In this document: piece after piece, positions 24,013 to 52,617 of the stretch | How the letters are laid out: each line of letters opens with the position of its first letter | Position numbering within the stretch: position 1 is the first letter of the stretch | Assembly (NCBI GenBank): GCA_037893245.1 | Contig: JBAIAA010000520.1 | Span: 496,001-560,000, forward strand | DNA length: 64,000 nt | Origin: Crossaster papposus | Lineage: Eukaryota; Echinodermata; Asteroidea; Velatida; Solasteridae | Direction: 5' to 3' | The notes under the pieces: generated by a model | What the model saw: only the letters and a program-made list of their open reading frames with translations | Databases searched by the model: none | Told to the model about the DNA's origin: nothing | Position numbers and translations under genes: made by a program

Positions 24013-26048
24013 ATGGCGGATATTCAGCGTCGTCTGTCGTCCGAATATCTGTCGTGTTGTTTAAATTCTGCAGCGGATAAATTATCCCTCGAAGATTTTA
24101 GACCCGAGCAGCGAAAGGCCTTAGAAGCCTTCCTTCCTTCGTGGTCACGATGTTTTCGTGAAATTGCCGACAGGTTATGGGAGGTCCGTCATTTTTCAGG
24201 CAGCCCCATTTTGCTCGGAGCTCGTATGGCCAGGTACAACTACAAAGGCCATAGCGATAGTCGTCTCGCCCCTGACTGCATTAATGCAAGATCAACTTGA
24301 TTCGTTGGCTGTTAAAGGTATTGAAGCGGCATGTCTTACTGTTAAGGAGACAACTCCAGCTATCAGGCGTAAAGTGAACCAAGGACAGTTCTCTCTAGTG
24401 TTTGCCAGCCCAGAAGCCCTGGCTGTCAGTGGCAGGGCGATTTTATCCAGCGATGTTTATCGCCAAAACTTGTGTGGGATTTTCGTGGACGAATGTCACT
24501 GTGTCAAAAACTGGTGAGTCAACCTATTTGATCATGTACAAATGTAATGCATGCTTAATGCAAAGGCTATACGGAAAGGGTTCCATACATGGATTGGATA
24601 TGACCATTTTGTTAAGTAATTTGCCCTAGTCTTCAATTATGAAGTTGGTGCATAACTTGGACTAGCATCAGCAGGTGAGCATCAGCCATTATAAAGCGGG
24701 ATAACATGTGCCAAAACCTCAAATTTAGCACCTGCACCAGAATGTAGGGGTTTTTCTGACGGAAAAGTAAAAGCATTCCGTGATGAGTACTCCCGCCTTG
24801 GAGAGCTTCGCTCCTTCACCGGACGATCTGTTCCCACTGTAGCACTTACTGCTACCGCAACTTCAAGCAGCCGTGCCACAATAATGGAGTCACTGTCACT
24901 CTCCAATGCTGTCATCTTTTCGAAGTCCCCACAACGAGAGAACATCAAGTTCGTCGTCGTTCAAGTCCGTGAGAGAGACATTTTCAAGACCTTTGAATGG
25001 AAGCTTGATGACTTTTTGGAAAAAGGTGCCAACTCAAACCGCATGATCATTTATTGCAAAACCAAAAACCAGTGTAACACTCTGTATGCAAAGTTTGAGA
25101 AGATGATGAAGCCTTCGTCTGCCTCCGACAGACTCTTTGCAAAATTCCATGCCCAAACAGATGATGAAGTGAAGGCTCTTGTCATCGACTCCTTCAAGAA
25201 TGTCAACAGCAATCTTAGGTTGTTGTTTGCAACAGTAGCTTTTGAAATGGGAATAGATGTCAAGCAGCTACACACTGTGGTGCATTATGGACCTCCTCAT
25301 GACATTGAGGAGTTTCTTCAAGAGAGTGGGCGAGCAGGAAGAGATGGCGAACAGGGTACGTCTATTCTTGTGCAGTATCCTGGTGCAGGAAAATTTACAC
25401 GACCTGATATTGCTATGAAGGCTTTCATATATTGCGATACATGCAGACGTCAGCAAGCGTTAATTGTCAAACTTTGATGGGGATGATGCTAACAACAGCA
25501 GAGTGCCGCTGCACTTGTGCTGTGATATTTGTGCAGCAAATTGCGCGTGTGGAGATCCAACATGCAAATCCAGAACCCTTGAAGAACAGGCCATGCACAA
25601 CATAATAGAGATGGGGTGCCTGCGAGCTAAGTTACGTTTGGTGTTGGCTGAGTACAAGTCAATGCTGGAAGATTCCCTCCTCGAGTATAGATGCACATTA
25701 CTCGAACCAGAAGCTTACGAGGGACACAACTTGCTTGCAGGTGGAGACATCACGACAGGTTTTCCTGTTTCCACTGCCAAGAAAATCGTTGGGGAATGCC
25801 AAATAGTATTCACCTTTGATGATTTTGTTTCAAGATATGCCTTCTACAAACAAGACATTGCAAAGCAGGCGTATGTCATAGTGTCAAGTGTTTTAGAGGA
25901 CTGTGAACTCATTGGTCCGACTCATGATCAGTCGGATACATCAGACACAGATTTATCATCATCATCGACGGGCACATCTCAACTGACCAGTTTAAGACCA
26001 ATCATCTTCTCATCATCCACTGATTCAAATAGATTTGTTTACATTTAA
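24013..26048 (+). pseudogene. RecQ-like DNA helicase, copy 1 (frameshifted, Walker A Lys to Arg)
   Basis: A superfamily-2 RecQ-type 3'-5' helicase. Exon 1 (24013-24513) starts at ATG (MADIQRRL) and holds FRPEQRKALEAF, the Walker A stretch KLPTGYGRSVIFQ, IAIVVSPLTALMQDQ and the Walker B box VDECHC. Exon 2 (24748-26048) holds ALTATAT, FHAQTDDE, ATVAFEMGID and QESGRAGRDG, then a Cys-rich RecQ-Ct zinc region (CDICAANCACGDPTC). Splicing gtgagt/tag restores the Trp codon across the intron, so the exon phases agree. The Walker A lysine is arginine, which normally abolishes ATPase activity. A repeated cctt near 24130-24140 shifts the frame before Walker A, and a second shift lies near 25455-25465. 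The tail is Ser/Asp-rich. Multi-copy and probably element-borne. Confidence 0.85.
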
Positions 26049-29546: not shown

Positions 29547-29702
29547 TCCATGCAACACTAGACTTGATATTCCATGCAACACTAGACTTGATGACAAGTC
29601 GTTAGATAGTCGGGTTTCATCCGTGTATTCCAGTCGAAATTCATCGGCACGGCTGGTTTAAGACTAGTAACGTGCCGAGTTTCGACAGATCTAACGACTT
29701 GA
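29547..29702. repeat. 25-bp direct repeat and adjacent hairpin
   Basis: The block ttccatgcaacactagacttgat occurs twice in tandem (29547-29595). It is followed by a nested inverted repeat: caagtcgttagat (about 29597) with atctaacgacttg (about 29688), and inside it tcgaaa plus cggcacg with cgtgccg plus tttcga. The stem is interrupted on the left side. It could be a MITE remnant or a structured transcript. Confidence 0.6.
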
Positions 29703-30425: not shown

Positions 30426-30716
30426 ATGGCAAGCCCTGGAAAACCATGGCGCTCATGCCTTGTTTGTAGCACCAAATTAGTCACCTGCAGAAATTACCAT
30501 AGCCTTAGGAAAACTAGTCTGAAATCAAGATTAGAAAAAAATATAAAAGTTGACCTTTCTGCAAGCGACACTGAGTTTATTTGTGGCCCTTGCCACACGA
30601 AACTAACTAATGTCGAAAAAGGAGAGAAACTGAGAGAAGACTTACAAATCCTCTTTGAAAAGTCCCGACAGCTTGTTGGAATAGAGGCGGAGACATATGG
30701 ACAAGAAGACAAAAAC
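30426..30716 (+). CDS. DUF6589-like gene, exon 1: cysteine-rich N-terminal module
   Basis: Starts at ATG in gaaaatggc and ends at a gtaggt donor, 97 codons in phase 0. CLVC and CGPC are spaced about 40 residues apart, giving a ZAD- or treble-clef-like zinc site, followed by a charged helix (EKGEKLREDLQILFEKS). It is likely a protein- or DNA-contact module. The ZAD likeness is by pattern only. Confidence 0.65.
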
Positions 30717-31352
30717 GTAGGTATATCTTGTTGTAGAAATTCCAGAACTAGACCTAATATAATAACCGAGTTACATACTGAACATTTGTAAAACTGACCT
30801 ATGCAAACTAAGATGATCGTGTAGATTGGGGCACCTTCCCCCGGATTAAAAATGTTATCGCGTTTATAATAGTACTCGCCCAATTTAGCCCATGATGTTG
30901 TCCTCTGGAATATAATTATCACAATTTTTGGGAAATAGGGCAGAACTTTGATTTTTCAGAAATTATGTGTTGATAAACCAGCAAATAAACAATATCATTT
31001 TCGAATAAATAAATAAATTAGGCCCTACGACGCTCTCCTAAACTATACAGAAATATGTGCAAATTAGAGCTCAGTCTTGCCGGGTTGCCGTTAGAACCTG
31101 GGCTTCCCAAGCTATAATACTAGTAACATAAAATATGGAAATTTGGTTCTAATCAGAAAAAAAAAAGCAGATTGTACTGGTTATGATATGTTTTTGTGTA
31201 ACACTTTAGAAGTCCAATTGGCAATTGTAAATTGACAGATTGTTGAAAATGTAAAAGTAGGAGAATGTTCAGGAGATACTTCATACATGTTACTAATACT
31301 ATGAAAGTACTCAATTTATATATACATTTTATAAAAATCTTTATTCATGCAG

Positions 31353-31532
31353 CACCCTTCGGCATGTTCCTCCAAAGCTCCAGAACAATCCCAACAGACC
31401 CTATTAAAAAGACTTCAAAAAAGGCCAAGGAGCAGCCCATCACCAGGATCTGCAGTGAGGAGACCCAAAAAGCGACTTGCCTTCGAGAAAAACACTACAG
31501 AAAAGAAATCTGTATCCGACTCAGATGTCCAG
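31353..31532 (+). CDS. DUF6589-like gene, exon 2: basic linker
   Basis: Between ttcatgcag and gtgaatg, 60 codons in phase 0 at both ends. It encodes a Ser/Arg/Lys-rich stretch (LLKRLQKRPRSSPSP, VRRPKKRLAFEK) typical of a nuclear localisation or DNA-contact linker. No conserved domain. Confidence 0.55.
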
Positions 31533-31659
31533 GTGAATGTAGGTTTGTGATCTGATTGGTGCAAATTAGTTTTCATTGATCATAAAATTGCTCTAACTGA
31601 CTGAGACAAAATATAAATAAGCGTACATAAAGAACAGCAGGGATGCATGATTCTGAGAG

Positions 31660-32045
31660 TGAGAAGGGAAGAGAGTGGGGGGGGGGGGGGGGGGGGGGGG
31701 GTGGTAGTTGTCAGACTTTGGAGTAATGCAGTGGAAGCCAAAAATGAGGAGCCCAAAAAATGTTTCCTAATTCCAAAGACTTGCATTCCAAAATTGGTTG
31801 TCATTGCCCATTTTTTTTTTAAACATTGCTTGTAACTAGAGACATTAATGAAAAAAGGCAAAGTACATCCTAACAAAAGATGATAATATTGGTAGTTTGG
31901 GGATTGCATGAGATTTTGTCAATCAAGCTTTATTATTTAAGGTCCAGACTGTTCCTATAGGTGTACGTCACTTTTGAAGGGCATGCACACCTGAACCCCA
32001 GCCCCCCCCCCCCCCCCCCCCCTCCAAAAAAAAGGGGGGTGGGGG
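31660..32045. repeat. Poly(G) and poly(C) tracts in intron 2
   Basis: A G tract of about 24 (31677-31701) and a C tract of about 20 (32003-32022) followed by a8g6. Frames spanning them are Gly- or Pro-rich artefacts. Confidence 0.6.
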
Positions 32046-33087
32046 AAGACATGACAGCACTCACTATAGCAAATCATGTTGATTATTGACATGCTACAAA
32101 TAAACCAACTTTCAATGTCTACACTCTGGCAGGGTGTCCTCCGCACACTTACTGAAGAAGCTGAGAACCTGTGCAAGAAAGATGAAACATCTCTTTTCTA
32201 CAGGACAAAGAGGAAATGAAGGTAACAAACCCTTAATTTTGATTACAAAAAATTGGAAGATTTTTATGACAGAAGTTTGAAATGTTTTATATATTCAAAG
32301 CATGATTCATATTTGAAAGTTTGAATTTAGGCCGATGATTAAACAAAAAATGTTTTTAAAAAAAACCCGCCAGCTTTATTTTCCCCCCTCTGCCCCTTTT
32401 CAGTTGATCATGTTTTTGACGCTGGTGTATTTTGCATTCTTAATTGTTTTCTAACAACAAAATGCAAGTTTACAAACACACAAATTATTAAAAACTCCTT
32501 TTAATACTTAAACAAACAAGCATCATCAGGAAGAGAGTCCAGAAAAAATGCCTAATATCTTGGAGAAATTCTTCTGTGCTGAAAAGGAGTGTTTTTGTAC
32601 TTGAACATTTGTGTGCCATTGAATTTTTTTTCAGAGACACACTTTTTGCATACCCCTTTGCAATGCTAGAAAACTGCCTCACTTCTCTGAATTATATGTA
32701 TTAAACAGCCAAGTTGTTGAAAATTGTAAAAACTTGTCAGAATATTTATTTGTACTCCTGGCTGGATGGAGAGAGGGGGTGAAGTGGCTTAACACAATAC
32801 ACAGCATTTGGCAAGTGGTGCATCTAGGTTTTCAGTTGCTGGGAATTATTATAAAAGAATTTCTGACAAACTTTTTGACTGGAATTTCTTTGTCCATTAT
32901 GTCCTTTATTGTCCCCATGCCATGCCACTAAATAGGGCAGACAGTTGGATTCAAATTCCTTACTCTTAGATCTGAGTCATGAACTATAACCACTATGTCA
33001 CACTCTCCTGAGATAACCACATGCAACATTGGCTGTTCAGTTACATTTTCTAGTAATGTGACTTTAGTTGTAATAATTTAATTGCAG

Positions 33088-33671
33088 AGATGGTCCTATG
33101 CTGCACAAGAAGAGGAGTTGAAGCAAAAGGCACCAATATTTCTCCAAGTCTTGGAAGCTGTAGCAGTTAATGAAAAGGCACTTAAGCGAGACAAGCATAA
33201 GTCACGAGAGAGTATTCTGCCAGGAATTATCACAGCTGCTGGTACACTTCTTTACTGCCGTAACCAAAGGATGAACAGTCACCAAGCACTTACTGGTTTG
33301 CAGCTGAAGAACGGTGGTGCAACAAAACAGACAATTCAAAGACTTCAAGACAGGGGCCTTTGTTTTGCATATAACTCAGTTCTAGAACTTCAGACAAACA
33401 TAGGTAAAGACTTTGATGACCCTGTAAATACAGTGGTCAAAACAAATGTCTGAAGACAGGCAGACAGAAGACAAGCTAAAGGCAAGAATACATTCGTTGA
33501 GATGGATGACAGCAGAAGAGGACATGACTGAAGCAGCATACAATGAGGATGCATCCTGGCTTCAAGATCATCACTGACAATGTGGATTTGAGAATTTCAC
33601 CCCGACAGATGTCAAGACAAAAAGGACACACTGATCTTCACTACTGCAACATCATTGCAGTGAAAAATAGG
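33088..33671 (+). pseudogene. DUF6589-like gene, exon 4 with two frameshifts
   Basis: The exon starts after aattgcag and ends before gtaagg. It encodes RWSYAAQEEELKQKAP, the conserved NQRMNSHQALTGLQLKNGG-type stretch of this family, then GKDFDDPV. The frame shifts near 33437 to continue in MSEDRQTEDKLKAR and again near 33552 to continue in GFKIITDNVDLR and the IIAVKNR end. The two shifts keep the similarity going in the same direction, so they are lesions and not introns. Confidence 0.7.
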
Positions 33672-33730
33672 GTAAGGTATTGTAACTGCATAGTTGATTT
33701 TAATGAAGACAGATTGTACTGCAACAATAC

Positions 33731-33772
33731 ATGTATGTATGTATGTATGTATGTATGTATGTATGTATGTAT
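33731..33772. repeat. (atgt)n microsatellite
   Basis: About ten perfect atgt units inside the intron after exon 4. Confidence 0.95.
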
Positions 33773-34007
33773 GAAGCCATTATTATCCTGAGCCATCACA
33801 ACTTCTATATGTATGTTGTGTGTGAGGCCTTCAGGAAGCTGCAAATTAAAGAATTTGATAGGGATGCATTGCCAGTCCACTTTGACACAAGCACAATGTT
33901 GGAGAATGGAGATATCTTTTTAAACTAGCTTTTGATTTTGAATCATGATTTTCATTTTTAACTGAGTTAATAGTATGATGTAGTTAATTTTGTTTTATGT
34001 ATAATGT

Positions 34008-34080
34008 ACAGCGCACATGAACATATTTGTATGGAATGCGCGCTATATAAATGTAATTATTATTATTATTATTATTACAT
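34008..34080. repeat. SINE-like tail ending (att)n
   Basis: The sequence acagcgcacatgaac, gcgcgctatataaatg and then (att)n resembles the tail of short interspersed elements known from many marine invertebrates. The head of the element is not recognised here. Confidence 0.5.
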
Positions 34081-34120
34081 TGTAGTTCAAATTATCTATA
34101 TATCTCTATAATGTATGCAG

Positions 34121-34348
34121 GTGTCAGGAAGTGACCTACCAAATGATGTTCCCATTATTAGAGACATGAAAGATGTGGACTTGTCATCATTCCTTCCCAA
34201 CGTGCAAGACAACCTAGATCTTTGTGAGGGCTGGATTTACATCATTGGCAAAGTACTTTCAGAGTACATGCCGGCATTTGCAGAATTTCGGCAGACATCC
34301 CCTAGACCTCACAAGTACTCCAAGTTGGCAAGTCAAAAAACAGAAGTA
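34121..34348 (+). CDS. DUF6589-like gene, exon 6
   Basis: Between tgtatgcag and gtaagt, 76 codons, phase 0 at both ends. It encodes MKDVDLSSFLPNVQD and WIYIIGKVLSEYMPAFAEF, ending HKYSKLASQKTEV. It corresponds to the conserved block that precedes the GDQLT motif in this family. No lesion in this exon. Confidence 0.75.
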
Positions 34349-34366
34349 GTAAGTATAGCTGTGTTG

Positions 34367-34503
34367 ATGGGGAGGGGGAGGGGGAGGGGGAGGGGGAGAT
34401 GTAGGAGGGGGAGGAGGAGATGTAGGAGGGGGAGGGGGAGATGTAGGAGGGGGAGGGGGAGATGTAGGAGGGGGAGGGGGAGATGTAGGAGGGGGAGGGG
34501 GTA
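34367..34503. repeat. G-rich minisatellite, unit of 24 bp
   Basis: Units of gggagggggagatgtaggag repeated five to six times right after the exon 6 donor. Strong G-quadruplex potential on the plus strand. The Arg/Gly-rich extension of the exon frame into it is an artefact of reading past the donor. Confidence 0.85.
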
Positions 34504-34885
34504 GGCCATGATCCCAAGGGTGAATTACCCCCTTTGCCACAAGCAAGGCAGTATATGGTAAAAGTTGTCCGAGGTCCTATGAGAAAAACAATTAACAGGC
34601 CGACACGAACAGGACTCGCACACATGACCTGCTTATGGAGACATCTTAACCACAGTACACACTACTAGTACTATGCTGGATTTCAGTCCGCCAGCCAACC
34701 CTGGAAAGCTTGATGAGGACTAGTAAAGACATTTGGATTAGTAAGCAGGAAGTCATGGGTTTGAGGCATGCGGGAGTAACCGAGTCTGTCAATGGCTGGC
34801 TATTCCTTCCATTATTAGTCATCAATCGTTGTGATGTTGAATTTTAAATTACATTTTATTTGCACTTGTCTGCATAACATTTTAG

Positions 34886-35047
34886 ATTGGACTTGGAGTA
34901 ATAACAGAAAACGAGAATACAAATTGGGGCATTGCCAAGATCATGGAGTATATCAACAGCTTTTTTCCAGACTGTGATACTGCCAAGCCTATCCAAATCA
35001 TCAGTGGTGGGGATCAACTCACTTGCGAACGACAAGAAAACATTCAG
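34886..35047 (+). CDS. DUF6589-like gene, exon 7 with the GDQLT motif
   Basis: Between acattttag and gtgtgt, 54 codons in phase 0. It encodes IGLGVITENENTNWG and then IQIISGGDQLTCER. GDQLT followed by ER is the most recognisable signature of the family, and its Asp is a likely catalytic or metal-binding residue. This last point is inference. Confidence 0.75.
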
Positions 35048-35674
35048 GTGTGTGGTTATAATTACTCTTTGTAATAGGTTTCAGTTTGGGTGTTAACAAA
35101 AAAGTTCAGAAAAGGGTAATATTGTAATGAACTAAAAGTACTTTGGGTCATGGTTTTGCTTAAATATACAGGGTGAGTTAAAAAAAAATAGACACTTTTA
35201 AAGTGCTCATTATTTTCAAAATGTAGTGTTATATGTGAAATCTTTTCACATGTATTTTTATAATATCTTCTGCTTCTTTTGGTACCAATTTTGTTTGATT
35301 AATGTCTATTGTTGACTGCACATGAGACAATTGAGGGGGTCATGTTAAGTCAGACTTGTGCAAATTGTTAGTAAAAAAAATTAGTAACCAGAAATATTTA
35401 ATTCTTTTGTCAATACATCCGACTTTCTAATGGAGTAGTGATATTGGCTACCATCGGTCATGGTTGACATTGTCTTTACATGTACATATAGATAGAAAAC
35501 CTTGTAACTAAAAGGACTGTGGTATAATAATTGTTTCAGATACACAATTGTTGCAACTTTCTACTCCTCTTAAATGAACATGTATGAAAACTAGTTTTCC
35601 TTTTATTTTTAATTATTATTTTTGTAATGTGCACATTCAAAAAAAATATAACCAGTTCTACTTTTTTGGAATAG

Positions 35675-35819
35675 GTCATGTGGAAGTACTTATACTCCAC
35701 AGACCCCAGTGGCTCAAGAGATGTTGGAACTCTTTTTGCAGCCCGCAATTTTCTTCAACACATAGCGTGTCTGCTGATCCCATGAAGGACTTCAACGCCT
35801 GTGATGAGCTTGTGGACAG
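35675..35819 (+). pseudogene. DUF6589-like gene, exon 8 with a frameshift
   Basis: After ggaatag, the exon encodes MWKYLYSTDPSGSRD and GTLFAARNFLQH. Near 35765 the frame shifts and continues as DPMKDFNACDELVDR. The relative at 55.6-56.0 kb reads this region in one frame (GTLYLARNFL, then NPMNNFNAY), which confirms the lesion. The donor at 35820 leaves AG, which joins a G from the next exon to complete Arg. Confidence 0.75.
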
Positions 35820-35987
35820 GTAAACTTCAATTGTAGTTTTCCTAACAGCTAAAAAAAAAGGGCCATTGCAAGACCATTTCGAATGGACCATTTCTTAATT
35901 ACAAATTTGCCAACAGGTTGTAACCGAGAACTTACAGCCAAAACAATATTTGTACCTTTTTCTTTGTACCTTTTTGCTCTTATTAGG

Positions 35988-36944
35988 TATTCAGATGCTT
36001 TGGTGCTGTGTGCAGCATTGGATTTCTTTGGCATGAAGAGTCCCTCAGGAAAGATTACTTGGCATGGCTCTGATGGATCTTGCGATCGTGTACAACACTT
36101 TCACGATACAATTGCCCAACTCATACAGGAGTTTGCCATCTCCTCTGTACCACTGTCTGCAGATCAAAAGTGCCTGACATGTCCTGAATGTGACAGGCCC
36201 TACAAGAGAATGTCAACACTGAAGACCCACTTCAAAAAAACGCACAAGGAGAAGCCCTTCCTATCACAGTCAGACAATCCAAACAAAAATGTTGTAAAGA
36301 ATTACAGTTGTGTTGCTCTTGGTCTTTGCTTGCTTGCTCAAGATTTCAAGGATGCAAGAAGACATGGTGATGGAGAACGTATCATGCTGCTGTACAAGTT
36401 TCTTCTCTTCCATTATAAGTCTGCAGGCAAACACAAGTACGCGTACCAAGTTCTGCGATTACTTGCCCAACAGATGTGCTTGATGACACCAAGAATGGCT
36501 CACCAGCTGACATGGAATCGCTTTGTGAACCTGAAGGGAAAACCTGACACTAACATTGAAATGGACCGTGCAATTGAGCACAGGAACAAAATGTTCAAAC
36601 AGGAATGCAGAGGATTTCACGGTAAAGTTACACCGAAATCAGTTGCACGAGTTGGTCAAGCAGCACATGCAATTGACACAATTCTTCATGCTGCAGACAA
36701 GGCTGCCAAGTCAAAGAAACCATCGGGCAAACATCCAAAACTCAAACTAAAGGACGATGTGTTGTCTTTGGTTAAGTTGATGCACACAGAAGAGATGTTC
36801 ACACTCAAACCAGGCCGTGTACTCCATGCCTATCCTGATTTTCCTCAGAATACCCTGAGCCAGCTTAATCTCACAGACATTTATTCATGGTTAACGAACA
36901 CCGTGAACAAAATATCTAAACTAACAGTTTTTAAAAAGGTGTAA
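35988..36944 (+). CDS. DUF6589-like gene, last exon with C2H2 zinc finger
   Basis: Starts after ttattag and is open for over 310 codons to a stop at 36944. It encodes YSDALVLCAALDFFGM, then a classical C2H2 finger (CPEC, 12 residues, HFKKTH) at about residue 75. A long mainly helical region follows (KYAYQVLRLLAQQM, NRFVNLKGK) with a Lys-rich segment near the end. The same order, YTESLVVCAAMTFFGI followed by a CxxxxC/HxxxH finger, is found in the copy at 55.6 kb. The exon is intact. Confidence 0.8.
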   Translation, partial: YSDALVLCAALDFFGMKSPSGKITWHGSDGSCDRVQHFHDTIAQLIQEFAISSVPLSADQKCLTCPECDRPYKRMSTLKTHFKKTHKEKPFLSQSDNPNKNVVKNYSCVALGLCLLAQDFKDARRHGDGERIMLLYKFLLFHYKSAGKHKYAYQVLRLLAQQMCLMTPRMAHQLTWNRFVNLKGKPDTNIEMDRAIEHRNKMFKQECRGFHGKVTPKSVARVGQAAHAIDTILHAADKAAKSKKPSGKHPKLKLKDDVLSLVKLMHTEEMFTLKPGRVLHAYPDFPQNTLSQLNLTDIYSWLTNTVNKISKLTVFKKV

Positions 36945-37017
36945 ATTGTTTCCGGCAACTGTCTACATCAACCCATTAGTTCTCACTATTTTTGGATCTT
37001 TGAAATCTTTGAAAGCC

Positions 37018-37087
37018 CCCCCCCCCCCCCAACCCCCAACCCCCAACCCCCAACCCCCAACCCCCCAACCCCCCAACCCCCAACCCC
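37018..37087. repeat. (cccccaa)n tract between the convergent genes
   Basis: About nine units of seven to eight bases after a poly(C) start. It lies in the short gap between the DUF6589-like gene and the helicase gene. It is not a known animal telomere repeat. Confidence 0.9.
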
Positions 37088-38619
37088 AGATAGAAACTAT
37101 ATGTAGCCTTCAAAGCGGACTGTGGAATGACTTTCTAATGTCACATTTCATTTGATATGGGGTTATTATGTATAACTAACAAATAGTATGTAAATAATAA
37201 AAACTACACATTTAAAAGTGCATCAATCACTATCTGTCGACTCATCTGTGCTGCTGAATGACAATACATTTACCACCCTCCTACATTGTGTAGTTACTTC
37301 ATCCTCACTATCCTCGTCACCACTTGTGGAACTTGCTGCATCATTGTTGTCATTACTACTTATCTTATATGTAAGTGTTGCATCGGTATCTAACCCTAAT
37401 GTCTCTGAAACAATTGACCACACATCCGAAGCTTGGAGTCTGTTAAATAGGGGGTATTTGGACATCAAATGTTCAATAGAGAAAATCATGTGACAATTAT
37501 CCACAATCTTCTGTATGAGGGAGGGGGAAATTCCACTTGCTATTTCAACACCCGCATACATGGCCCCTGCATGCCCCTTCAAAAGTGAATCTCTGTATAA
37601 CTCCAGTTTTTCTTGCAACTCTTTCTTCTGACTGTCTGTCACTTGTCTTGTTGTAACACTTGCCTGTGTATCACCTGAAGCCGAGAGCTTTTGTAAATTG
37701 TGTAGGTGATGTGTGCACCAGTCTTTATCCCCTGAGCTGCATTGATCACCTCCACATTGGCACTGTTCTGAACACCTGTCACAGCAACGGTGCTGTAAGA
37801 AATTACCACTGTGCTGTGGGGAGTATTCATAACACTCGAGAAGAAACTTTCTTCGGCAATTGGAACTGTTAGCATAATCTTTCATCTGCTGCTCCACTCG
37901 GCAAGCTGAGTAGCAGCCTGGGTAGGTGAGAAGAACCGCATAACTTTGCTTGCCGTGTCTTCCAATTCGTCCAGACTCTTGAAAGTAATCATCGGTGTTG
38001 CGAGGTGGGCCATGATGAATGACATGATACAAATTATGTACATTTATTCCCATGCCAAAATGCCACAGTTGCAATTAAAATTCTAATGGATCCATTTGCT
38101 TCAGTAAAATCTTTGACAATGAACTCTTTCCGATCATCTGCAATGCAGCTATGGAACATTGCAACATGTTTAACTTTATCTTTATCCAGCGCATCAAATA
38201 CAGCATGTATCTCTCGGCAATGTTTGTGGGACTGACAAAATATTACCACTTTTGGAGTGTTCTTTCCATGTTTCTGTAATTCTTTCACTAGCCATGCATA
38301 CTGACAATCTGCACCCTTGACAGTAGTATCCACAACAGAATACTTTATATTTACTCGCTCTGGTGACACTGCAATCCGAGTAATTTCAGACATCCCAAGT
38401 GTTGACTCGATGACATTTTGTAGGTCCGGTGAAGCTGTAGCTGTGAGAGCCGTCATTGGTACGCTCCGTGGCACAAGAGAACGTAGTTCTGCTAAACGGC
38501 TGTAGCATTTCCGAAAGGCATCAACTTTTCCTGATTTCAATCCTCTGTTTCCAAAAAAATAAAAAAATAAATTTTCAATTTGTTTGATTGGCATGCCTAA
38601 CTGAAAAAAAAAACTACTT

Positions 38620-39003
38620 ATAGACTGGAACAAATATCCAGAAATGTGCCTGGAAAAAGTCCTGTAGGCATTTTTGAGGAAAAGCGGCCAAACAACATTT
38701 TCTAGAGTGGTTTTTCGTGCAGATTACGAATATTTTGTTTGGACATTTCAATTTTGCCTAATTAGGTCAGAAATCGAGGTCAAAGTTCAATAACTGGTCA
38801 ATTACCATATTTGACCAAAAATGTACATAATCACATGGCCTAATGGTATAATGAAAGGTTCCTTTAAAAATACTTACCATTAGGGGTGTGGTAAGCATTG
38901 TATTTGACAATAAAAATAGAAAATGTGAAGCATATTTATCATAAAATACCTCATATCTCCTTTAATACTGAACATTCCAAAAAATCATCACAAGTTCACT
39001 GAT
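38620..39003. repeat. Left arm of an inverted repeat flanking the Penelope-like element
   Basis: Over about 370 bases this is the inverted copy of 42224-42590. Shared landmarks include agtcctgtaggcatttttgagg, ctagagtggtttttcgtg, cctaattaggtcagaaatcg, ataatcacatggcctaatgg, gtggtaagcattgtatttg and catcacaagttcactgata. The arm begins about 75 bp upstream of helicase exon 3, inside the intron. Confidence 0.85.
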
Positions 39004-39372
39004 ATTATTTTATTTTAGAAATGAGAAGGCACTATCCCATTCAGTGACACACCCTTTCCCTTGACTTGTTTTTGGCTTAAAATGGATTTTAAGCATGTTT
39101 TAGTCTTTGCCAGTTATGTCCAAATTAAAAGGTATATTGGGTGGAGATTGAGTGACTTCAGTTGGATGGATAATCAAATGGGATTATGGGTGCGAGCAGA
39201 GGATTATGTTTGCAAATCCTCTTGATAGCAATAGCATGCTTTCGTGCCTTGCTGTGGCACTCGTCAGTTGCAAATGGGTGATTCAAAAAGAATCGAGGCT
39301 GACTCGCAGAGAGGTTGTGGTTGGGATTGGGTATATTCTAATCATGTAAGTTTGGTTTGAGCCATATGTTTG

Positions 39373-41443
39373 TTAGTCGGTTTCAGATTGTTCCTCCAGT
39401 AAGGAGAGCAATATGTTGAGGGTTTCGTCTGGTTCAGTTGGTTGTTCGAAAAAGCCAGAGTCTGTTGGGAGTGGTTCGAGCTTTTGTATTCGCTGTGGTA
39501 GTTTAGCTCTTATTAGTTTCTCCCAAATGTTTTGGGCTTTTTTGAAGGCAATAAATGGAGGTTTTGGAAAAAGTTCCGAGAGTATTTGATTGCCTTCGAT
39601 TAAATTCCAGTTTCGGTTTATTGCTCGATGTATGTCACCGTGATTTATGGCTGGGTTGTAGGTGGTTGTGAAGACAAGTGGAGTTTGTTTTGTTTTTTCT
39701 CCATCCTTTGTGTTGTGTATTAGTCTCGATCGGTCGGCATGTGAGACTTTGGTTGTCGCTGTTTTGATTTCATTGGAATTGTAACCTCTTGTGGTTAGTT
39801 TCTCTGAGAATATTTTGACTTTGTTGTGGAAATCATCCGTGTTGTTGGTGTTTCTAGCGTAGCGGAGTGTTTCTCCGTATATGAACGCTTTGAAAGTATG
39901 GGGTGGGTGGGATGATGTTTTATGGAGATATTGGAAGGTTTCCGTTGGCTTGGTGTAGACTTTGGTGTCTAGGATTTCTGTTTTATGGAAACGGTCTCCT
40001 TTGAATATGGTTAAGTCAAGGTAGTTGATTGATGATTCAGAGGCTTCGTATGTAAATTTTAGAGTCGGGTGCATCTTGTTTATCTCAGTGATGAGATTTT
40101 GGAATTCGTTTAGAGTTCTGTTGTAGATGACCAATATGTCGTCTCTATAGCGCCACCATGTAAGGATGTTATCCGCTTTTTGGATTATTTTGTTTTGGAA
40201 GTCGTGTAGGGTGATTTCACAAATTGTAATAGTTTGTGGGGTAATATCTTGGTCCAGTTGGGTATAATGATGGGACTCAAGATGGTGGTAACCCACTTGT
40301 AGATAATCTGAGTGGTTCATAATGCAAATGTCTCTGCCTTTGTCATATGGTTTGACTACGATATCAGGATTGTTTTTGAGTTTATTTATGGCGGATAAAT
40401 CCTGCGTGGTTATGTTTGTTTGCCGTTTCCTTAGCCTGATGTGGGCCAGTTCGAATTGTGTGGTTTCCAAGTATTCTTCTAGTGTTGCACTAGGGGATGA
40501 TTTAGGTTGCCAGTTAGATGGTGGTTTGAAAGGATGGTTTTTGGGGCGTTTATTTCACATTAAGAATGTAATTCTTAGTCTTCGATTGAAGGTATTTATG
40601 TCACTTACAAGTGTTTTGCGGTTTGGTTTAGCAGGAGTAGGTATGAAATTTAAACCTTTTCCTAAAGCAATTATTGCGATAGTGTTGCTTTGGATAGGTT
40701 TGTTACTTTGTTATGAAGGATTGACTTTGTTCTGCTAGTGAACGCAAATGATTGGAGTTGACTCGTTTGGTTTTCGATTTGCATTTGTTCGAGAAATGGT
40801 TGGATTTCGATTGGCTAAGTGATCTCTTTGTTTTTTGGTTGAGTTTTCTTCTTGCCATGGTAGAGATTTATGGTTTGAATATAACAGATAATATAGGATG
40901 GGTTATATTCCAGTTTATTTATTATCTTTATTATATAGTAAGGGCAAGATTACGGATTTCTCCCTTTTGAGAAGGTGTGGTAGTCCTGAAAAGGAATATT
41001 TGGTTTTGTAGTGGTTAGAGATCGACTTAGGGTTGTCGTTTTCTCTTGATGCCCTTGTTGGGTTGATAGCTGGGTCTTGTGAAGAAGCTCAGGAGTTTTT
41101 GAGCGGTAGAATGGTCTAGACCCTGGATATCTTCAGCAAGTTGTTCTTGTGCTGATCGTATGGCGTTGGTGAGCTGGTCCTCGGTGATTGGTAGTTGGTG
41201 CTTGTACTCATCCAGCGTGATTCTTGTGAACAGCAACGACGTTCTTCTCTGGAGATTGCTCCAGCGATCCTGGAATGAATTCTGAAATTTCAGAGATCGA
41301 TGTGGGTGTGGTGGCCGTATGTTTACCGTGATATAGGATGGTGGTGTGTTAGTCTCGATTGACCGGGAAAGGAGCCGTATTTGGCGGGTGATGTGTTCCT
41401 TGGCAGTTGTCAAAATGTTGACTTTTTCCGCTAGGAATTTCAC
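39373..41443 (-). pseudogene. Penelope-like element reverse transcriptase, internally deleted
   Basis: Minus strand. An N-terminal region (41443-41027) is followed, after a frame change, by ALGKGLNFIPTP and FNRRLRITF (about 40700-40580), which mark the start of Penelope-like RTs. Then come NPDIVVKPYDKG, a jump directly to the palm block WWRYRDDILVIYN, YLDLTIF, YTKPTETFQYLH, the SSHPPHTFKAF-type block and RGYNSNEI. About 200-250 residues containing the first catalytic Asp and the block before YRDD are absent. The C-terminus ends without a GIY-YIG endonuclease. Known relatives copy by target- or end-primed reverse transcription. This copy cannot encode a working RT. Confidence 0.85.
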
Positions 41444-41871
41444 CTGTTTGATTTTTTCCTCGGAGAGTCTGTGCGAGACCTAAATTGAAAAGGGAAAACT
41501 AAATTGCACAGGAGCCTGCAAATGTTCAGATGGTGAGAGAGTTTGCATGAAGAAGCCTGTCTCAATGCATGTTTAATGCAAGTTTTTCGATTATTCGAAA
41601 TATAACTTTAAGTGTCAATGTATGCCTACAAATTCAGTGTCAGACTTCAGGGCCTACTTATCATTGCATTCACATTGTCATTTTTGGTTCAATATTATAC
41701 AACGTAGTGGGTATCAACAAACAATGAATTCAAACCATTCCTAGCCAAAATATAATGTGGTACATTACAATTTGATGAAACGTAAGCTAATGAAAGCAAG
41801 ACAGAGATTTTGTCATAACTCTTCAAAACATTTAGCCTACTATGTAAGTTGGCATTTTGTTGTCAACTTTA

Positions 41872-41953
41872 TTGGGGGTGGGGAGTGGTAAGGGGTGGGG
41901 TGGGGTGGGGGTGGGGAGTGGTAAGGGGTGGGGTGGGAGTGGTAAGGGGTTAG
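41872..41953. repeat. G-rich tandem block (gggtggggagtggtaagg)
   Basis: Two to three copies of a unit of about 35 bases rich in gggg and gtggtaagg, lying between the Penelope-like frame and the right inverted arm. It has quadruplex potential. Confidence 0.8.
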
Positions 41954-42223
41954 TGTGGGGATACGTCTGGAACTTCACAGTCCTGACCAATGAGTCACAC
42001 TTTAGAATAGGTACCTAGCAGTGTTCAGAAAAATAAACTAGGCACGCATGTTCAATGGTCATTTTGCAAATACATGTAGGTCAAAAGTTGACCTAGTTTT
42101 GACCCATTCTGATGCCAACCAAACATCACATTTCCATTGAAAATAGTCAGAAAGATATTAGAAACAGTGTCTACTGTTGTTCCCAGCAAAGTTAATGGCC
42201 ACAGAAATGTATCAGTGAACTTG

Positions 42224-42590
42224 TGATGATTTTGTGGAATGTTCAGTAATAAAAGAGTTATGAGGTATTTTATGATAAATATGCTTTACATTTTTCTATT
42301 TAAGTGTCAAATACAATGCTTACCACACCCACAATGGTAAGTATTTTTAAAGTAATCTTTCAATATTCCATTAGGCCATGTGATTATGTACATTTTTGGT
42401 CAAATATAGTAAATGACCTAGTTATTGAACTTTGACCTCGATTTCTGACCTAATTAGGCAAAACTGAGATGTCCAAACAAAATATTCGTTTTCAGCACGA
42501 AAAACCACTCTAGAAAAAGTTGTTTGGCCCCTTTTCCTCAAAAATGCCTACAGGACTTTCTTTTCCTGAAGTATGGCCCAGTCTACACCA
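42224..42590. repeat. Right arm of the inverted repeat flanking the Penelope-like element
   Basis: Reverse complement of 38620-39003 with scattered substitutions and small indels. The two arms enclose about 3.2 kb including the reverse transcriptase remnant. No target duplication could be fixed. Confidence 0.85.
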
Positions 42591-43337
42591 TTAATACTGT
42601 AATGCTAGAACAGACTCTCACTACACAGGATGAAGGACAGTGCCAGGTTTCATAATGGATGGATCCTATCAATAGAATTATGTAAGAATGTAAGAATTCA
42701 GGACTTATTTTACACAAAGGAATGGTATATGCCTTAAAATGACATCTTCATTGTTTAATACGATAGGTGCATGAATAAAACGTGTATTACAACAAGCCAA
42801 CAAACATCAGTTGAAGAAGAATGGAAAATTAACATTTGTGGTAAAATAGCCGTGTTTTCTTTTCGCCTTTATTACTAAACTGTATTTAAAAGACAGACGA
42901 GCTTCTATCTCTTTTTTTGAACATGATTTTGCCTGTGAAAGCCAGTGGCCTTGAAAAGCACTATTTAAGGCATTTTTTGATTTGGTCTTGACCAAATATT
43001 CCTGAAAAAATGAATTATATACATCCAAGTACATACATTTTAAGACTTACCACTTAGCCACACAATGGCTCTCATCAACAACAAAACCACAAAGATTCTG
43101 CTGATAAGTTGCAGAGGTGAGCAAGGATCGTCCTAATGGACCAATACGTGACTCTGGACTAGCAAAGATGTGGGAGTACTGGCCCTGTTGAAGTCCGGTG
43201 TCATTTGGCTTGACGTCCCCTACGTAGTATGCTGATATACCTCGTTCATTCAAGATCTTGACTTGATCGCGCATCAGTGAAATCGGTGGGGAAATAATGA
43301 CAGCAATCGCCTTGCTCTCCATTTGTCCGGAAGGACT

Positions 43338-44167
43338 CTGTAAAGTGTGAAAGAAAACAAAATCGTCACAAAGTTACTTACACGTGTTGCATGTATAATA
43401 ACCAATCTGGGATGATAAGCTTAGCTTAAAAGTTACATGAAAGCTAAATGTATACACGTACATTCGAACACCTTTCTAAGAAGGTTGTCGAGTCTTCACA
43501 AATTACCTTGTTATAACATTAACAGGGACAACAGTACTGGAAAACAAAGAATACCAAGACTTGGGGACCTAACATTTATGTTGTTATAACTAGTAGGATG
43601 TTGTATTAACAGTGCTCTTATTATCGGTGTTTGACTGTATGTACACAATTTGTTGAATTTAACATTGTACTCTTGTTTAGTTTATTTCAAAGGTTAACAG
43701 TAACAGAATACCAATCAGGAAAGCAAACTATTTTGAGGAAGTCCATATTTAGCATAACATAATGTGCAGGTGAATGCGCCTTAGAAAGGGGCGACAAAAC
43801 TTGATTGGATCATTTCCACACCTTGCCACTTAACACCCAACATTCAAATGACAATTGTACAAAATGTATAACATCATCTCCTAGTCATACTCTTTAATAG
43901 TACATATTATGAGACAAATAGCATAGTGCATCCTGTAAATGTAATGTGAATTTTCCTCCATTGTTTGAGCCTTTTCACAGTAAAGACCAACTTGTCTTAG
44001 GTTATGTGGTTTTCGGGGATTCTGAGTTTGTCGGACTGAGTGAGAGGATCACGAATATTGCAAAATTATTGTCCTCACTGTCAAGTTAAATATAGAAAGA
44101 GATAATTCTAATACTCAGACCATTACTGACTGTACTGTGTAAAATAGTATTTATAAACTGGACATAC
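43338..44167. other. First intron of helicase copy 2
   Basis: AT-rich with no frame or repeat that I can identify. Its donor (gtatgt) and acceptor (tttacag) are on the minus strand. Confidence 0.4.
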
Positions 44168-44375
44168 CGTCTTCAGTACTCAGTAGGTCGATGCATATCG
44201 GAGCCAACTGGAAGATGACGGACTTGCCAAGTCCTGTCGGCAAGTTCACAAATGTGTCCTTGCCGTTGAGTACACTACTTAGAGCTTCGAGTTGCTTTGA
44301 TTTTAGGGCGCTTATCCCCGACCCCGATATCTCAATAGCACGTTTTACCGACGATTGTATCTCTTCTGGATCCAT

Positions 44376-45711
44376 TTTTACTATGCGTGCAGTGCCGTAG
44401 GTTATACCCTCCGTATCCCGTACCGTACCGTGAACCGTACGCGAAGCAGCGTAGAATACATGCTGTATAAAGTTGCTCATAAATATTTATCCCCTCTGGA
44501 ATCTAAACCAATCAGAGTGCTCGCATAGAATTCGCTAGCGATTGTCATAGGTTGTGTACAAAACTGAAAACGAATTGTCCAAGTCGGTAATTTAACTTCG
44601 AACTCCGCAAATTGGGTACGAGGCAACCGCAACATCCCCTGTACATATTAGACCATGGGATGAACATGAAATAGGCATTCACATTTTAAGAATTGTGACC
44701 CCCCTCTAGAAGCTACCTGATATTTTCCAAAAATACAAATATGATCCTATTGAATCAGAATATCAGGTTGGCCAGAGAGAAAAATTGCACATTAATTAGG
44801 CTTAACCAATTAAAATATCCAGCTTGAAAATAGCGCCCTCTGTTGGTCACTTCGGGAGAGGTGTGTACAAAACCTATGAGGAATTGAAATGTACACAAAC
44901 AAATGGCAGGGAGCGATTTGAGCTCGTCTGGACAAAAAATGACTGCTTTGTTTTTGTCTTCCCGATTTCCTGTATATTCTTTTTTTAAAGAAATATTCCT
45001 AAACCAAGATTGTTATAGTTTTTTCATGTTATCAACAGTTCAGTTTTTGTTTTCAGTTTCTTTTCATTTGATCAACCAAATGTTTGTATCTTGCCTGTCT
45101 TTCTTTTTGATTTTGGGACTCCCCCCAAAAAACAAATTAAACCCCAAAAAACACAAGAACAGAAGAAAAGAAGAAGAAACGGTTATAAGAACAATGACAA
45201 ATATTTATTATACATTATTGCAAATTTTGTATCATTATTTTTGCAATTTTTTTCACAATATCAGAACTTCATCAAAAACCTTTTTAGAATGGTATACTTT
45301 TATGTTATCCTGAAAGATACAGAAATATTGATTATTGCTTTGTAAGTTATATCTGTGCAGTAATTGTAATTCAATGATATTTTAAAGTTAGAACATTTTT
45401 GTGTAGATGTACAGTGCAATAATTATGCTTAAATGAGTTACAGGTAAATGTAAACCAGCACATCAGCTTCTATAAATGTGAGCAAGTGCTTTGTTTTAAC
45501 ATCTGAAATTCATTTTTAAATTTTGTTATGATGCTTCAGTAAACAAAATTATAACTGCATTTATATACCTGTAAAAACAAAAGGATTATCTTAACCTGAG
45601 GTGAAATTAAAGGAGTGATAATTAAAATACGAAATTATGTGTCGCGATAAGTAATTATTTTTGAGGGCAAGACTTTCACTTTTACGACACTGAAAATTAG
45701 TGCCATTTTAC
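44376..45711. other. Upstream flank of helicase copy 2 and AT-rich DNA
   Basis: The minus-strand promoter of the helicase gene should lie just above 44376. There is a tandem run of ggtacggt-like words near 44415-44440. A tagcgccctctgttgg word is at 44831-44846. The frames at 44903-45345 are A/T-biased and match nothing known to me. Confidence 0.35.
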
Positions 45712-46208: not shown

Positions 46209-46718
46209 GCTGAAAAATAACAACATATTACATAAATAAACTACAACAAGCTCTAATTTTAACTTGTTATCCATTTATCCACTCCTACAAAAAACCACTC
46301 ACATGTACTTTATCTAAAACCTCTAATGAAAGTGGTTAAGAATATATTTTGTTGCCTTTAACCCTTTCAATCCCACGGGCTCCAAAAAGAGCCTTTGTTG
46401 TGATATGCTTGGAACCCGTGGGCGACAAAAAGTCCCACGATTTGCCATGAGCTTGGAGACCAAGGCAACTTATCTCACCAGCGAAAACACTGCTTGAGAG
46501 TTATTGGTTTGGCGCCCTCTGCTGACAGAAATAAAGTTTTTGAAGTTAGCGCGCCATCCCATATATGCATTGCATGCAGGCATGAATGTACGTGTACGTG
46601 AATAGGTTAGCTACCGGTCACGTGACTGACGCGACGCGCGACATTATAGCGTCGCGTCCCATGCATATCCATTGCGGTCGAAGTAGGTTATACGTATCGC
46701 TGTGTTTTTGCAATCGGA

Positions 46719-46856: not shown

Positions 46857-47346
46857 GTAAGCGCATGATACAGGCTTGAGTAGGTGCCCTCGAGTATAAC
46901 GGAAATTAGAGTATAACTGTATTTATTTGATGTATGTACAGTGGCACTCAGTGCATGTACATCAAATGAATACAGATTACAGTCCTATAGAAATTTACCT
47001 CCACCCATAAACATGGTATAGCCTGTCGTGCAATTTTGCATCCAAAAAGATGCAGTAGTAGTATTCTTAACCTCAAATAAGAATAGCTTCGTAGGCCGTT
47101 TGGCCTGGTATTTAGACTCCGTATTATTATGTATTATATTTGGCAAGAATTTAGAAGATGATTCACTATGTCAATCACAGTCAATACCATACACAAGGCA
47201 TTCACATTCATGACATATCTGCAACGACTATTGAGGCCACCATGATCGTTCTTTTCTCAGCGCAATATTCATTTTAGGCATGTGCTGCAAATTAGCATTA
47301 ACAAATATAGGACCGATAATCAAATTTTATCTTGCTTCTTTTGCAG

Positions 47347-48948
47347 CCTACCCAAGATGACGGCCATCCAAGTTCTTCCAAATCAAGAACCGGAAAAGCC
47401 AATTTCCGATCTGGTTGGGAACGACGAGACCACTACGATTGTGGGACTGTGCAGTTCACTGGAAATCCTGGCCCAACTGGCGACTTCGGAACACTCTCGG
47501 CAGTGGAGATCTTCAAGCTGTATTTTTGCCAACTCGTGTGGGATTTGCTCGTCGACGAGACTAATCGCTATGCACAGCAAACAATAGACTCAAATCCTGA
47601 ACAACAGTTCTCCTGGTACCCAACCAACGTTCCCGAAATGATGGCATTTGTAGCACTTATCATTGCTATGGGCATAAACAAATCGCCTCAATATAGGATG
47701 TATTGGTCAACGTCAGAAATTTTGAAAATTCCCTTTTATCCGTCGATAATGTCGAGAAATCGTTTCAGTTCAATTCTTCGGTTTCTCCACATCTCCAATA
47801 ACCAAATTCCTCGTGAATCCTCGGCTAAACAAGACAAACTTTCCAAAGTTCGGCCCTTGATAGAAGTCATTATCCCGAAGTTTCTTAACCTGTATAAACC
47901 TGCGCAGAATCTGTCTCCAGACGAGAGTATGTTGAAATTTAAGGGACGCTTAAGTTTTATTCAGTACATGCCCAACAAACCAGTAAAACGTGGGATGAAA
48001 GCATTTTCATTAAATTGTAGTAAATCCGGATACACGTGCAATTGGGAACTGTACACAGGTGCTGACAACACAAAAACTGTAAAGGATAAGGTACATGTAG
48101 ATTCCGAGTCATCAGACTGCCATCCACCAAACCTGACAGTCCCTGGAAAAGTGGTTATAGAATTAGTCAAACCACTTCAGAATAAGGGACACGTCATATA
48201 CTGTGATAATTACTATACAAGTCCGTCGCTGATAGCAAAACTGTCTGAACAAGGCTTTGGATGTTGCGGAACTGCTCGATATACTGCTAAGGGAATACCC
48301 GAGGTCGCAAATCCAAAAAATCATAAAATGAAGAAAGGTAGCAACCCAATCTTTTTGGTGAAAGATGGGCAATTGTGCATGGTTTGGCAAGACAAAAAAT
48401 CTGTAACATTTTTAACTAATGTCGGCAGCACTGCAGTGTCAAAAAAGCAAACTCGATGTAAAAAGAGCACTTCTGGATTTCGTGAAGTTATGAAGCCTGA
48501 ATGTATTTCATCTTACAATTTAAATATGGGAGGCACAGATTTAGCAGACCAGTGTTTTCAGTACTACAATCATACCCACAGAAGCTTGAAATGGTGGAAA
48601 CGAGTTTTTTACCATCTTCTCAATATATGTATTGTCAATAGCAGAGTAATATTTAACAGCACAGCAGGGAGCAAAAATGTCAGTAACCTTGATTTTCGTA
48701 TAGGGATTGTACAAGGCTTGCTATTAGGTTGGAAACGTAATGCAACAAGTCAGTTGAGATACCATATTCCTATTGATTTGGCAAGACAACAGCACTTTCC
48801 TGGCAAAAACCGCAATGGAAAGAAACGCGACTGCATTGTTTGCAGTAACCGCAAATTAGGCCGGCGAAAACAAACGGTGATTATATGTAAGCAATGTATG
48901 AAGCCTATGTGCATAGTTCCTTGCTTTGAGAATTACCATACCACTTGA
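47347..48948 (+). CDS. piggyBac transposase, exon 2 (PGBD4-like, intact)
   Basis: Open for 533 codons after the acceptor, giving a protein of about 579 residues with exon 1, the usual size for the family. Catalytic aspartates are visible in SPDESMLKFKGR, YCDNYYTSPSL and NMGGTDLADQ, corresponding to the three Asp of the RNase H-like DDD domain. Conserved WWKRVFYHLLNI follows. The C-terminus carries a cysteine-rich zinc module (CIVCSNR, ICKQCMKPMC) that binds the terminal repeats in relatives. The enzyme cuts at TTAA and excises precisely. No stop or frameshift is seen, so the element may be, or recently was, autonomous. Confidence 0.93.
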   Translation, partial: PTQDDGHPSSSKSRTGKANFRSGWERRDHYDCGTVQFTGNPGPTGDFGTLSAVEIFKLYFCQLVWDLLVDETNRYAQQTIDSNPEQQFSWYPTNVPEMMAFVALIIAMGINKSPQYRMYWSTSEILKIPFYPSIMSRNRFSSILRFLHISNNQIPRESSAKQDKLSKVRPLIEVIIPKFLNLYKPAQNLSPDESMLKFKGRLSFIQYMPNKPVKRGMKAFSLNCSKSGYTCNWELYTGADNTKTVKDKVHVDSESSDCHPPNLTVPGKVVIELVKPLQNKGHVIYCDNYYTSPSLIAKLSEQGFGCCGTARYTAKGIPEVANPKNHKMKKGSNPIFLVKDGQLCMVWQDKKSVTFLTNVGSTAVSKKQTRCKKSTSGFREVMKPECISSYNLNMGGTDLADQCFQYYNHTHRSLKWWKRVFYHLLNICIVNSRVIFNSTAGSKNVSNLDFRIGIVQGLLLGWKRNATSQLRYHIPIDLARQQHFPGKNRNGKKRDCIVCSNRKLGRRKQTVIICKQCMKPMCIVPCFENYHTT

Positions 48949-50601: not shown

Positions 50602-52614
50602 TTAACAATAAATTAACCGAATATTTGCCATATTGTCCCATTCCTCCATGTCTGTCCTAGCCACAATATACCAAATCCTACCTTCTCTGGGTACGTCCAC
50701 CTCCTGAGGTGATGAAGTCAGCTGCCAAGGGATAGATGGAGTAGCTGGTGTATAAGCGCGGAGAAAACGACGATTGCGCAACGTGAGCCGTCCGGATCCA
50801 TGCACCTTTACCCGATATTGATCGTGGCCTGGGGATTCCACCACCACCCCTGACCTGTCCCACTTGGTCGGGTTGGCACCTTGTTGGTTCTGAAGGAAGA
50901 CTCTCTCACCGACTGCCAATGGCCGAAGGGGGCGCGAGTGTACCTTAAGGGATTCCGTGGTGCGGGCGATCCGTGTCCGGAGAGCTTGTTCCTTCGCCGC
51001 CCACGCCTGGCGCCAGAGGGGGCGGATGTGAGGATTGGAGAATTTCTCCAGTCGGTTGACGAAGGAGAGAGTGTCTCGTAGTGGACGGCCGAATATGATC
51101 TCTGCTGGCGAGAGGTTGCAGTCTGGATCGGGTGTGTTGCGTAGCTGTAACATCGCGCGCAGGAAGCGGTCGTGATCAAGGCTGCCGGTTGGGCCAGTGT
51201 TAGACCTCGGGAGGCGTTTGGCCGTTTTCACCGCGACCTCTGCTCTGCCATTCGACTGGGGGAAACCGACGGAGGACAGGCGGTGTCTGACCCCCCATAG
51301 GTGGAGGAAGTCTTCTGTGTGACTAGCTTTAAACTCTGGGCCGCCATCGCTCGAGAGCTCCTCCGGGACACCAAACGTGGCGAAGAATGAGCGAAGGTGG
51401 CGGACCAGGCCGGCGGATCCACCAAGGCTAGTGCCCGCTGCTGAGCTGTACACCTCCACCCAGCCCGATAGGCGGTCTCCCACGACGAGGCAGTGGCAGA
51501 CTCCGTAATCAAAGAAATCGGCGAAGACTGCTTCGAATGGAGATGAGGGTGGTGGTGATGGCAGGGGTAGTGTGGCAGCTTGTGAAGGGGCGTTCCGGTT
51601 GCAATCGGTGCACCCCTCTCGGGTCTCACGAATGTCCTTCGACATCCCCGGCCAATATACAATGGCACGGGCACGCTGTTCCATCGTGGATGTGCCTTGG
51701 TGGGCGGCGTGAAGATTCTGTAGGACCCGGCGTCGAAGGGACGGGGGGACCACAACGCGGTCCTGATATAATAGGGCGCCCTCGTGTGTGTAGATAGACT
51801 CGGCGATGGGCCCGATGCTGGCAAGGGCGGGGTCGTCGCGGTCGGGGGCCTGGGGCCCATGCTCAATCAGCTGTAGAAGGTGGCCCAGGGACGCATCCGC
51901 CGCTGTCTCTTGCGCGATAAGTGACCATGAGATCAAGCCGAGCTCTTGGGCTTCTTTGTGGATGGAGGCCATCAGTGCCGACTCTACGAGGTCAGGGCAA
52001 TTTGACGTTACCAGTGAACAGTCGTTTGATGGGCCTGACGGGGAAGGGTGTCTCGATGCTGCATCAGCGGCGTGGTTACTCTTGCCGGGCAAGTGCTTGA
52101 TATCAAAGCGCCATGGGAGGGTGCGTTGCTTAAGTCGGAACAGTCGCGAGTTGGATATCTCGTCCAGTGTGCGGTCGCCGAAGATCTTCACAAGCGGCTT
52201 GTGGTCAGTGACCACGATGAGGTTGTCGCACCCCTGGGTGAAGTATCGCGACTGCTCGAGACCCCAGGCTACGGCTAGGGCTTCACCCTCGACGGCTGCG
52301 TAGCGTTGCTCCGCCGAGGACAAGAATCGTGAGCCAGCCAGGGTGACCCTCCACCCCTCAGAGCAGCAGTCTGGTATGTCCGATGGACAGCTGCAGTGTT
52401 GTTGAAGTAGGAAGTATCCGATACCACGCTTTGACCAGTCGGGGCGAAGGCAGGTGCGCCTCTTCATGTCAAAAATCTCCACGCCCTGACGAATGCCTTC
52501 GACAATGGCTTCCTTGGAGACCCGGAAGGTTTCCTCCAACTCGGGGGTCCATGAGAATTTACAGCGTGGGCTAAGGAATGGCTTAAACGGGGCCATCGTG
52601 TCGCGCAGTTGGGC
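50602..52614 (-). pseudogene. pol: Ty3/Gypsy Pol, RNase H and integrase part
   Basis: Minus strand, continuous with the RT frame except for one stop at 52615-52617. RNase H carries its acidic residues in LRPDWSKRGIG, VEGEALAVAW, VTDHKPL and NHAADAASRH. The integrase zinc region (HAAHQGTSTMEQ, CTDC) is followed by DDE residues in VFADFFDYG, SSDGGPEF and NGRAEVAVK. A short C-terminal domain (TKWDRSGVVVE) closes it. The frame is otherwise intact. The 3' LTR expected just below 50602 is absent, so the element is truncated at that end. Confidence 0.9.
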
Positions 52615-52617
52615 TTA

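Follow-up and report, generated by a model that had tools for sequence, protein, structure and literature searches.

A convergent DUF6589 and RecQ-like gene pair in Crossaster papposus: the probable remains of an AcademH-like DNA transposon

Two broken genes of Crossaster papposus, one with a DUF6589 domain and the other resembling RecQ helicases, run tail to tail in a stretch of 64,000 nucleotides (assembly GCA_037893245.1, contig JBAIAA010000520.1, here C520, positions 496001-560000; genome of 1.02 Gb in 1841 contigs), and raise the question of whether they are chance neighbours or parts of one mobile element. This whole stretch is called the window, and coordinates without a contig name refer to it. 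A first-pass annotation had read the pair as a possible two-gene mobile system of no described superfamily. Our results partly support this view: the mobile-system reading is right, yet the element is not new in kind. The window copy is very probably a dead member of the helicase-encoding branch of Academ (AcademH-like), an autonomous DNA transposon that would have moved by the mechanism set out below.

The DUF6589 gene, broken, spliced and likely encoding a transposase, lies at 30426-36944(+), as judged by Pfam, exon matches and reading frames. Exon stretches matched by relatives were found at 30426-30671, 33082-33426, 33546-33674, 34868-35041, 35675-35758 and 35979-36932(+), and extra exons were assigned by eye at 31353-31532, 32133-32220 and 34121-34348(+). 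The open reading frame 35853-36944(+) matches DUF6589 (PF20231) at 2.4e-22, with 79.7 bits against a cut-off of 27, and the GGDQLTCER exon (34886-35071) gives a weak DUF6589 match under the cut-off (0.0091). A C2H2 finger is present inside the DUF6589 region (36177-36245, +), where zf-C2H2 scores 20 bits, E 9e-4, under its cut-off of 25.2; for the cysteine-rich N-terminus only a sub-threshold zf-AD match was detected (0.02). The frame is broken at about 33.45-33.55 kb and 35.75 kb, and the GDQLT exon is cut short, the end of the exon being missing.

The RecQ-like helicase gene, also broken, lies at 44375-37223(-), on the evidence of Pfam, the PDB search, frames and matches, with exon stretches at 44375-44157, 43337-43050, 38555-38049 and 38059-37226(-). 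Helicase_C matches above the cut-off were found at 37226-38074(-) and 38037-38723(-), and the top PDB relatives are BLM (2.3e-37) and WRN (4.6e-36), which makes the gene RecQ-like; its frame is broken near 38.05 kb. The tail-to-tail pair of the first-pass annotation is thus confirmed, with DUF6589 and Helicase_C above the Pfam cut-offs and the finger below. The convergent arrangement stands and the claimed gap of 279 bp between the stops does not, since 278 bp were measured (36945-37222). The helicase gene carries a 3.9-kb insertion in an intron, between exons (38656-42559, -). Its inverted arms (38656-39004 and 42210-42559) are about 350 bp long and 91-95% identical, and a reverse-transcriptase-like frame lies at 39376-40554, with a weak RVT_thumb match under the cut-off (0.0052).

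For the window exons, tblastn found relatives at other places in the genome, with order and orientation kept, and the convergent DUF6589/RecQ pair was found again at other loci; the pairing is therefore not a matter of chance. The relatives that carry the argument form a group named family B, which was read through both ends in contigs C710 (13,393 bp) and C429 (13,241 bp). In both, convergent DUF6589 and RecQ genes lie between inverted repeats starting TAGTCTTGGTTCCAAGACCATGG, identical across the first 23 bp, and the units are flanked by 9-bp direct duplications, CACCTTGGT and AGGATTGTA respectively. RecQ is within bounds in both of the units read end to end, and so the proposal that the two genes belong to one transposon holds in these relatives, which have common termini and target duplications.

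The family B terminus, at up to 2 mismatches, has 360 forward and 354 reverse matches in the genome, against 0 + 0 for a reversed-pattern control. Pairing covered the 77 of these 714 matches that have 0-1 mismatch, leaving aside 23 listed matches with two mismatches and the unlisted ones, and yielded 31 pairs facing inward plus 15 unpaired termini, of which 4 have DUF6589 within 25 kb. Comparison of loci had been suggested as a way to common ends and target duplications, and the 31 pairs supplied both: 24 of them carry a perfect 9-bp duplication and 5 one with a single mismatch, and the duplicated sequence varies. A PF20231 search, in which 102 of 334 candidates were scored, gave 112 matches in this genome and none in 14 control genomes. 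Such a match is enclosed in 12 of the 13 pairs longer than 2.5 kb and in none of the 18 short pairs (314-2047 bp), a count based on 37 of the 112 DUF6589 matches together with a reading by eye of the remainder, none of which fell inside the 31 pairs; a pair scored without DUF6589 may still contain a weak match. Of the 12 long pairs that contain DUF6589, 11 have an exact duplication, and the one in C255 has a single mismatch. The termini, the duplications and the short units together show transposition with staggered cutting of the target, and, because it is encoded in 12 of the 13 long units, the DUF6589 protein is the candidate transposase.

Two further observations were made on these termini. 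Two very large units, C1190:214891-256449 (41.6 kb) and C388:204043-295600 (91.6 kb), have family B termini, one DUF6589 match each and an exact 9-bp duplication; they may be giant units or ordinary units enlarged by nested insertions. In addition, the 23 listed two-mismatch matches, found genome-wide, all read TAGTCTTGGTTCCAAGACCTTCG, which points to another abundant family with its own terminus.

The ends of the window unit were sought through its closest relative. Besides itself, the 963-bp window exon has one match at 99%, in contig C162, and 12 more at 66-72% in the genome. Further C162 stretches are 93-98% identical to the window, the C162 surroundings differ, and that copy is itself rearranged: 182 bp replace window 38621-43755, a change that also costs this copy a helicase exon. 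The last part of the unit that can be aligned to C162 is 44400-44647. Similarity stops at 44647, and C162 runs on for 38 bp to an inverted TAGACTTGGTGCCAAGTCGG; the right terminus is lost in the window. This sister terminus has 321 + 336 genome matches at up to 1 mismatch (657), against 0 + 0 for the control. At up to 3 mismatches its sole match in the window is TAGACTTGATGACAAGTC at 29583-29600(+), which differs at 2 positions, has the orientation of a left end and sits 843 bp upstream of the ATG. A simple equal-base formula gives 0.003 expected window matches at up to 2 mismatches, and at up to 3 mismatches a match appeared in 6 of 100 shuffles. Position 29583 is thus the probable left end of the window unit. 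The family B terminus gave only weak matches in the window at up to 6 edits, such as 46445-46469(-).

Two more fragments that the first-pass annotation had listed were also recovered. One is RecQ-like (24131-25898, +; Helicase_C 1.1e-18 by Pfam; tblastn 1e-61 against relatives), and the other is DUF6589-like (55565-56044, -; tblastn 8e-34 with family B, match 56044-55613), with no PF20231 match when searched alone. They are probably not parts of the one unit, as had been implied, because with the probable left end at 29583 both fall outside it; the best reading is that each is a decayed copy of its own.

D375 (DNV), D525 (GD), E530, D818 and E822 (P0027 numbering) are identical in all 12 transposases compared. 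D375, D525 and either E822 or D818 would make a usual DDE layout in which a finger module precedes the last residue, and on this pattern the DUF6589 protein may be a DDE-type transposase. It would recognise the inverted termini and excise the element, which would then be joined to a staggered cut in the target, and repair would leave the 9-bp duplication. The convergent RecQ-like helicase may serve to unwind DNA, either at excision or in the course of repair. Short units that share these termini but contain no DUF6589 gene would, in the simplest reading, be non-autonomous passengers. Catalysis, the helicase step and the assignment of fingers to binding targets are inferences, as is past movement of the window copy by the same route.

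Several results weigh against an AcademH-like transposon in the window. The AlphaFold model of the transposase is weak near D375 and D525 (mean pLDDT 62.3, with 359-409 and 479-539 under 50), and PDB profile searches returned finger domains at best; with the transposase profile none was below E 0.1. The likeness to AcademH is one of description. The 9-bp duplication is absent from 2 of the 31 pairs (C641 and C67). Seven family B slices of 9.9 kb (L021-L027) show no RecQ by themselves, because the gene begins past the slice end in the two that were extended. Furthermore, the match at 29583 is located at a small tandem repeat (24 bp, two copies), and the window copy lacks a right terminus, leaving no duplication to compare. 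C162 supplies none in its place, because its left end was not found within C162:778300-785500, where similarity begins at window 32992. Finally, a blind search of the window for terminus pairs gave nothing above shuffles: the best scores for terminal inverted repeats (TIRs) with a target duplication were 28 (9 bp) and 30 (10 bp), and 20 shuffles reached 27-30 and 29-31.

A convergent RecQ was found in all four lineages read far enough, namely the window with C162, family A, family B and the locus L001. Family A has it at 12 of 12 loci, which are probably duplicates of one region. No convincing pair of termini was found for family A by a scan that recovers the known family B ends, and the family was not counted as evidence for transposition, given that its copies C75 and C740 have 18.9 kb in common at 99.8% and that others are spaced at 248-265 kb, in C156 (236324, 500919, 764250, 1027540), C1188 (121332, 379913) and C186 (3211480, 3459532). 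This spacing and identity could come from duplication of a very large block, tandem or otherwise, or from the assembly itself. L001 (C111:159929-164446) represents a distant lineage with an intact DUF6589 frame of 1048 aa and a convergent RecQ piece. In it two PHD-like fingers replace the C2H2 of other families; the first is ING-like, with YNG1 as best PDB match (2.8e-11). Neither L028, where no RecQ was found across 3.1 kb downstream, nor L002-L008, with roughly 1.3 kb read downstream of each, is informative here. In protein database searches the L001 protein had no match, a family B exon had 26, one of them species-named (Holothuria leucospilota), and the family B core had 9, all from echinoderms, the closest being 84% identical (Asterias amurensis).

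The hint of an undescribed superfamily was not sustained, since Academ elements that encode a helicase and make 9-10-bp duplications are already described (PMC10045372). A distinct superfamily is an unlikely reading; it would have a similar TIR mechanism, a DUF6589 transposase unrelated to that of Academ, and only the helicase and the duplication length in common. Both characters given for AcademH in the same excerpt, the helicase and the 9-10-bp duplication, are found here (PMC10045372), and the element is filed as AcademH-like because both fit. In favour of a distinct superfamily, the AcademH link draws on these two characters and not on the transposase, and the name "DUF6589" was not found in the limited paper collection searched. 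The partial account of KolobokH in PMC9587614 shows, moreover, that RecQ joined another superfamily as well. A further proposal, rather improbable, is that these elements are a superfamily of their own whose transposase carries a swappable module for reading DNA or chromatin, placed between proposed catalytic residues two and three, that steers insertion, and whose members can move as giant units; its basis is the C2H2 in most families seen and the two PHD-like fingers in the L001 lineage, together with the intact termini and exact 9-bp duplications of the 41.6- and 91.6-kb units.

It is very improbable that two ordinary host genes, neighbours by chance, were copied by segmental duplication. 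The location of family A copies in large duplicated blocks and the long open frames of some DUF6589 copies, such as L001, would suit such genes, but family B units, inserted at unrelated sites, all stop at shared termini flanked by target duplications, both window genes are broken, and the C162 relative has different flanks. An element of the KolobokH type can scarcely be entertained, for although KolobokH encodes a RecQ helicase, on the complementary strand in one rhodophyte family, TTAA duplications of 4 bp are expected of it according to the same partial source (PMC9587614), and here 24 of 31 are exact 9-bp duplications of varied sequence.

Other mobile elements and repeats were found in the window. 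A long piggyBac-like transposase frame with its zinc finger is present at 47320-48945 (DDE_Tnp_1_7, 6.4e-82). Retroelement frames occur at 14470-19173 (Pao-type, 1568 aa), at 50605-53733 (a Gypsy-like pair with reverse transcriptase, RNase H and integrase) and at 60912-61868 (another reverse transcriptase). There are two arrays, one of an 8-bp unit in 110 copies (962-1822) and one of a 16-bp unit in 29 copies (6436-6900).

With an AcademH-like transposon as the preferred reading, DUF6589, a Pfam family of unknown function, is now linked to a mobile unit whose ends are known, and its role can therefore be tested by an excision assay. A simple origin is also offered for the scattered RecQ-like genes and the hundreds of short terminus-bearing repeats in Crossaster papposus. 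The exchange of C2H2 and PHD fingers merits the attention of specialists, and so do the two bounded units of very large size.

Among known systems, AcademX has a nuclease of the XPG type. The elements described here differ from AcademX in their 9-bp duplication, against 3-4 bp, and in their helicase, against a nuclease; the superfamily is the one that AcademX has in common with AcademH. In PMC10045372, duplications of 9-10 bp for AcademH and 3-4 bp for AcademX are tied to the encoded helicase and nuclease. Excerpts of other papers discuss AcademH and KolobokH helicases in fungi (PMC10799480) and Academ elements in bivalves (PMC10294476). KolobokH encodes a RecQ helicase, and Kolobok duplicates TTAA, 4 bp; like KolobokH and Kolobok-1_CCri, as partially documented in PMC9587614, our elements place a RecQ helicase next to a DDE transposase, whereas their duplications are 9 bp and of varied sequence. 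The RecQ genes of fungi, in the extract of PMC4522978, are multicopy and subtelomeric. Those of Crossaster papposus are likewise RecQ-like and multicopy, but they lie within TIR-bounded units and the fungal genes are bound to chromosome ends (PMC4522978). Like AcademH, the present element is a TIR transposon encoding a superfamily II helicase, here RecQ-like, in the window and in C710 and C429; the 9-bp duplications of its relatives are within the AcademH range of 9-10 bp. The termini of those relatives are inverted. The AcademH excerpts mention neither the C2H2 or PHD module, nor the sea star host, nor units of 41.6 and 91.6 kb.

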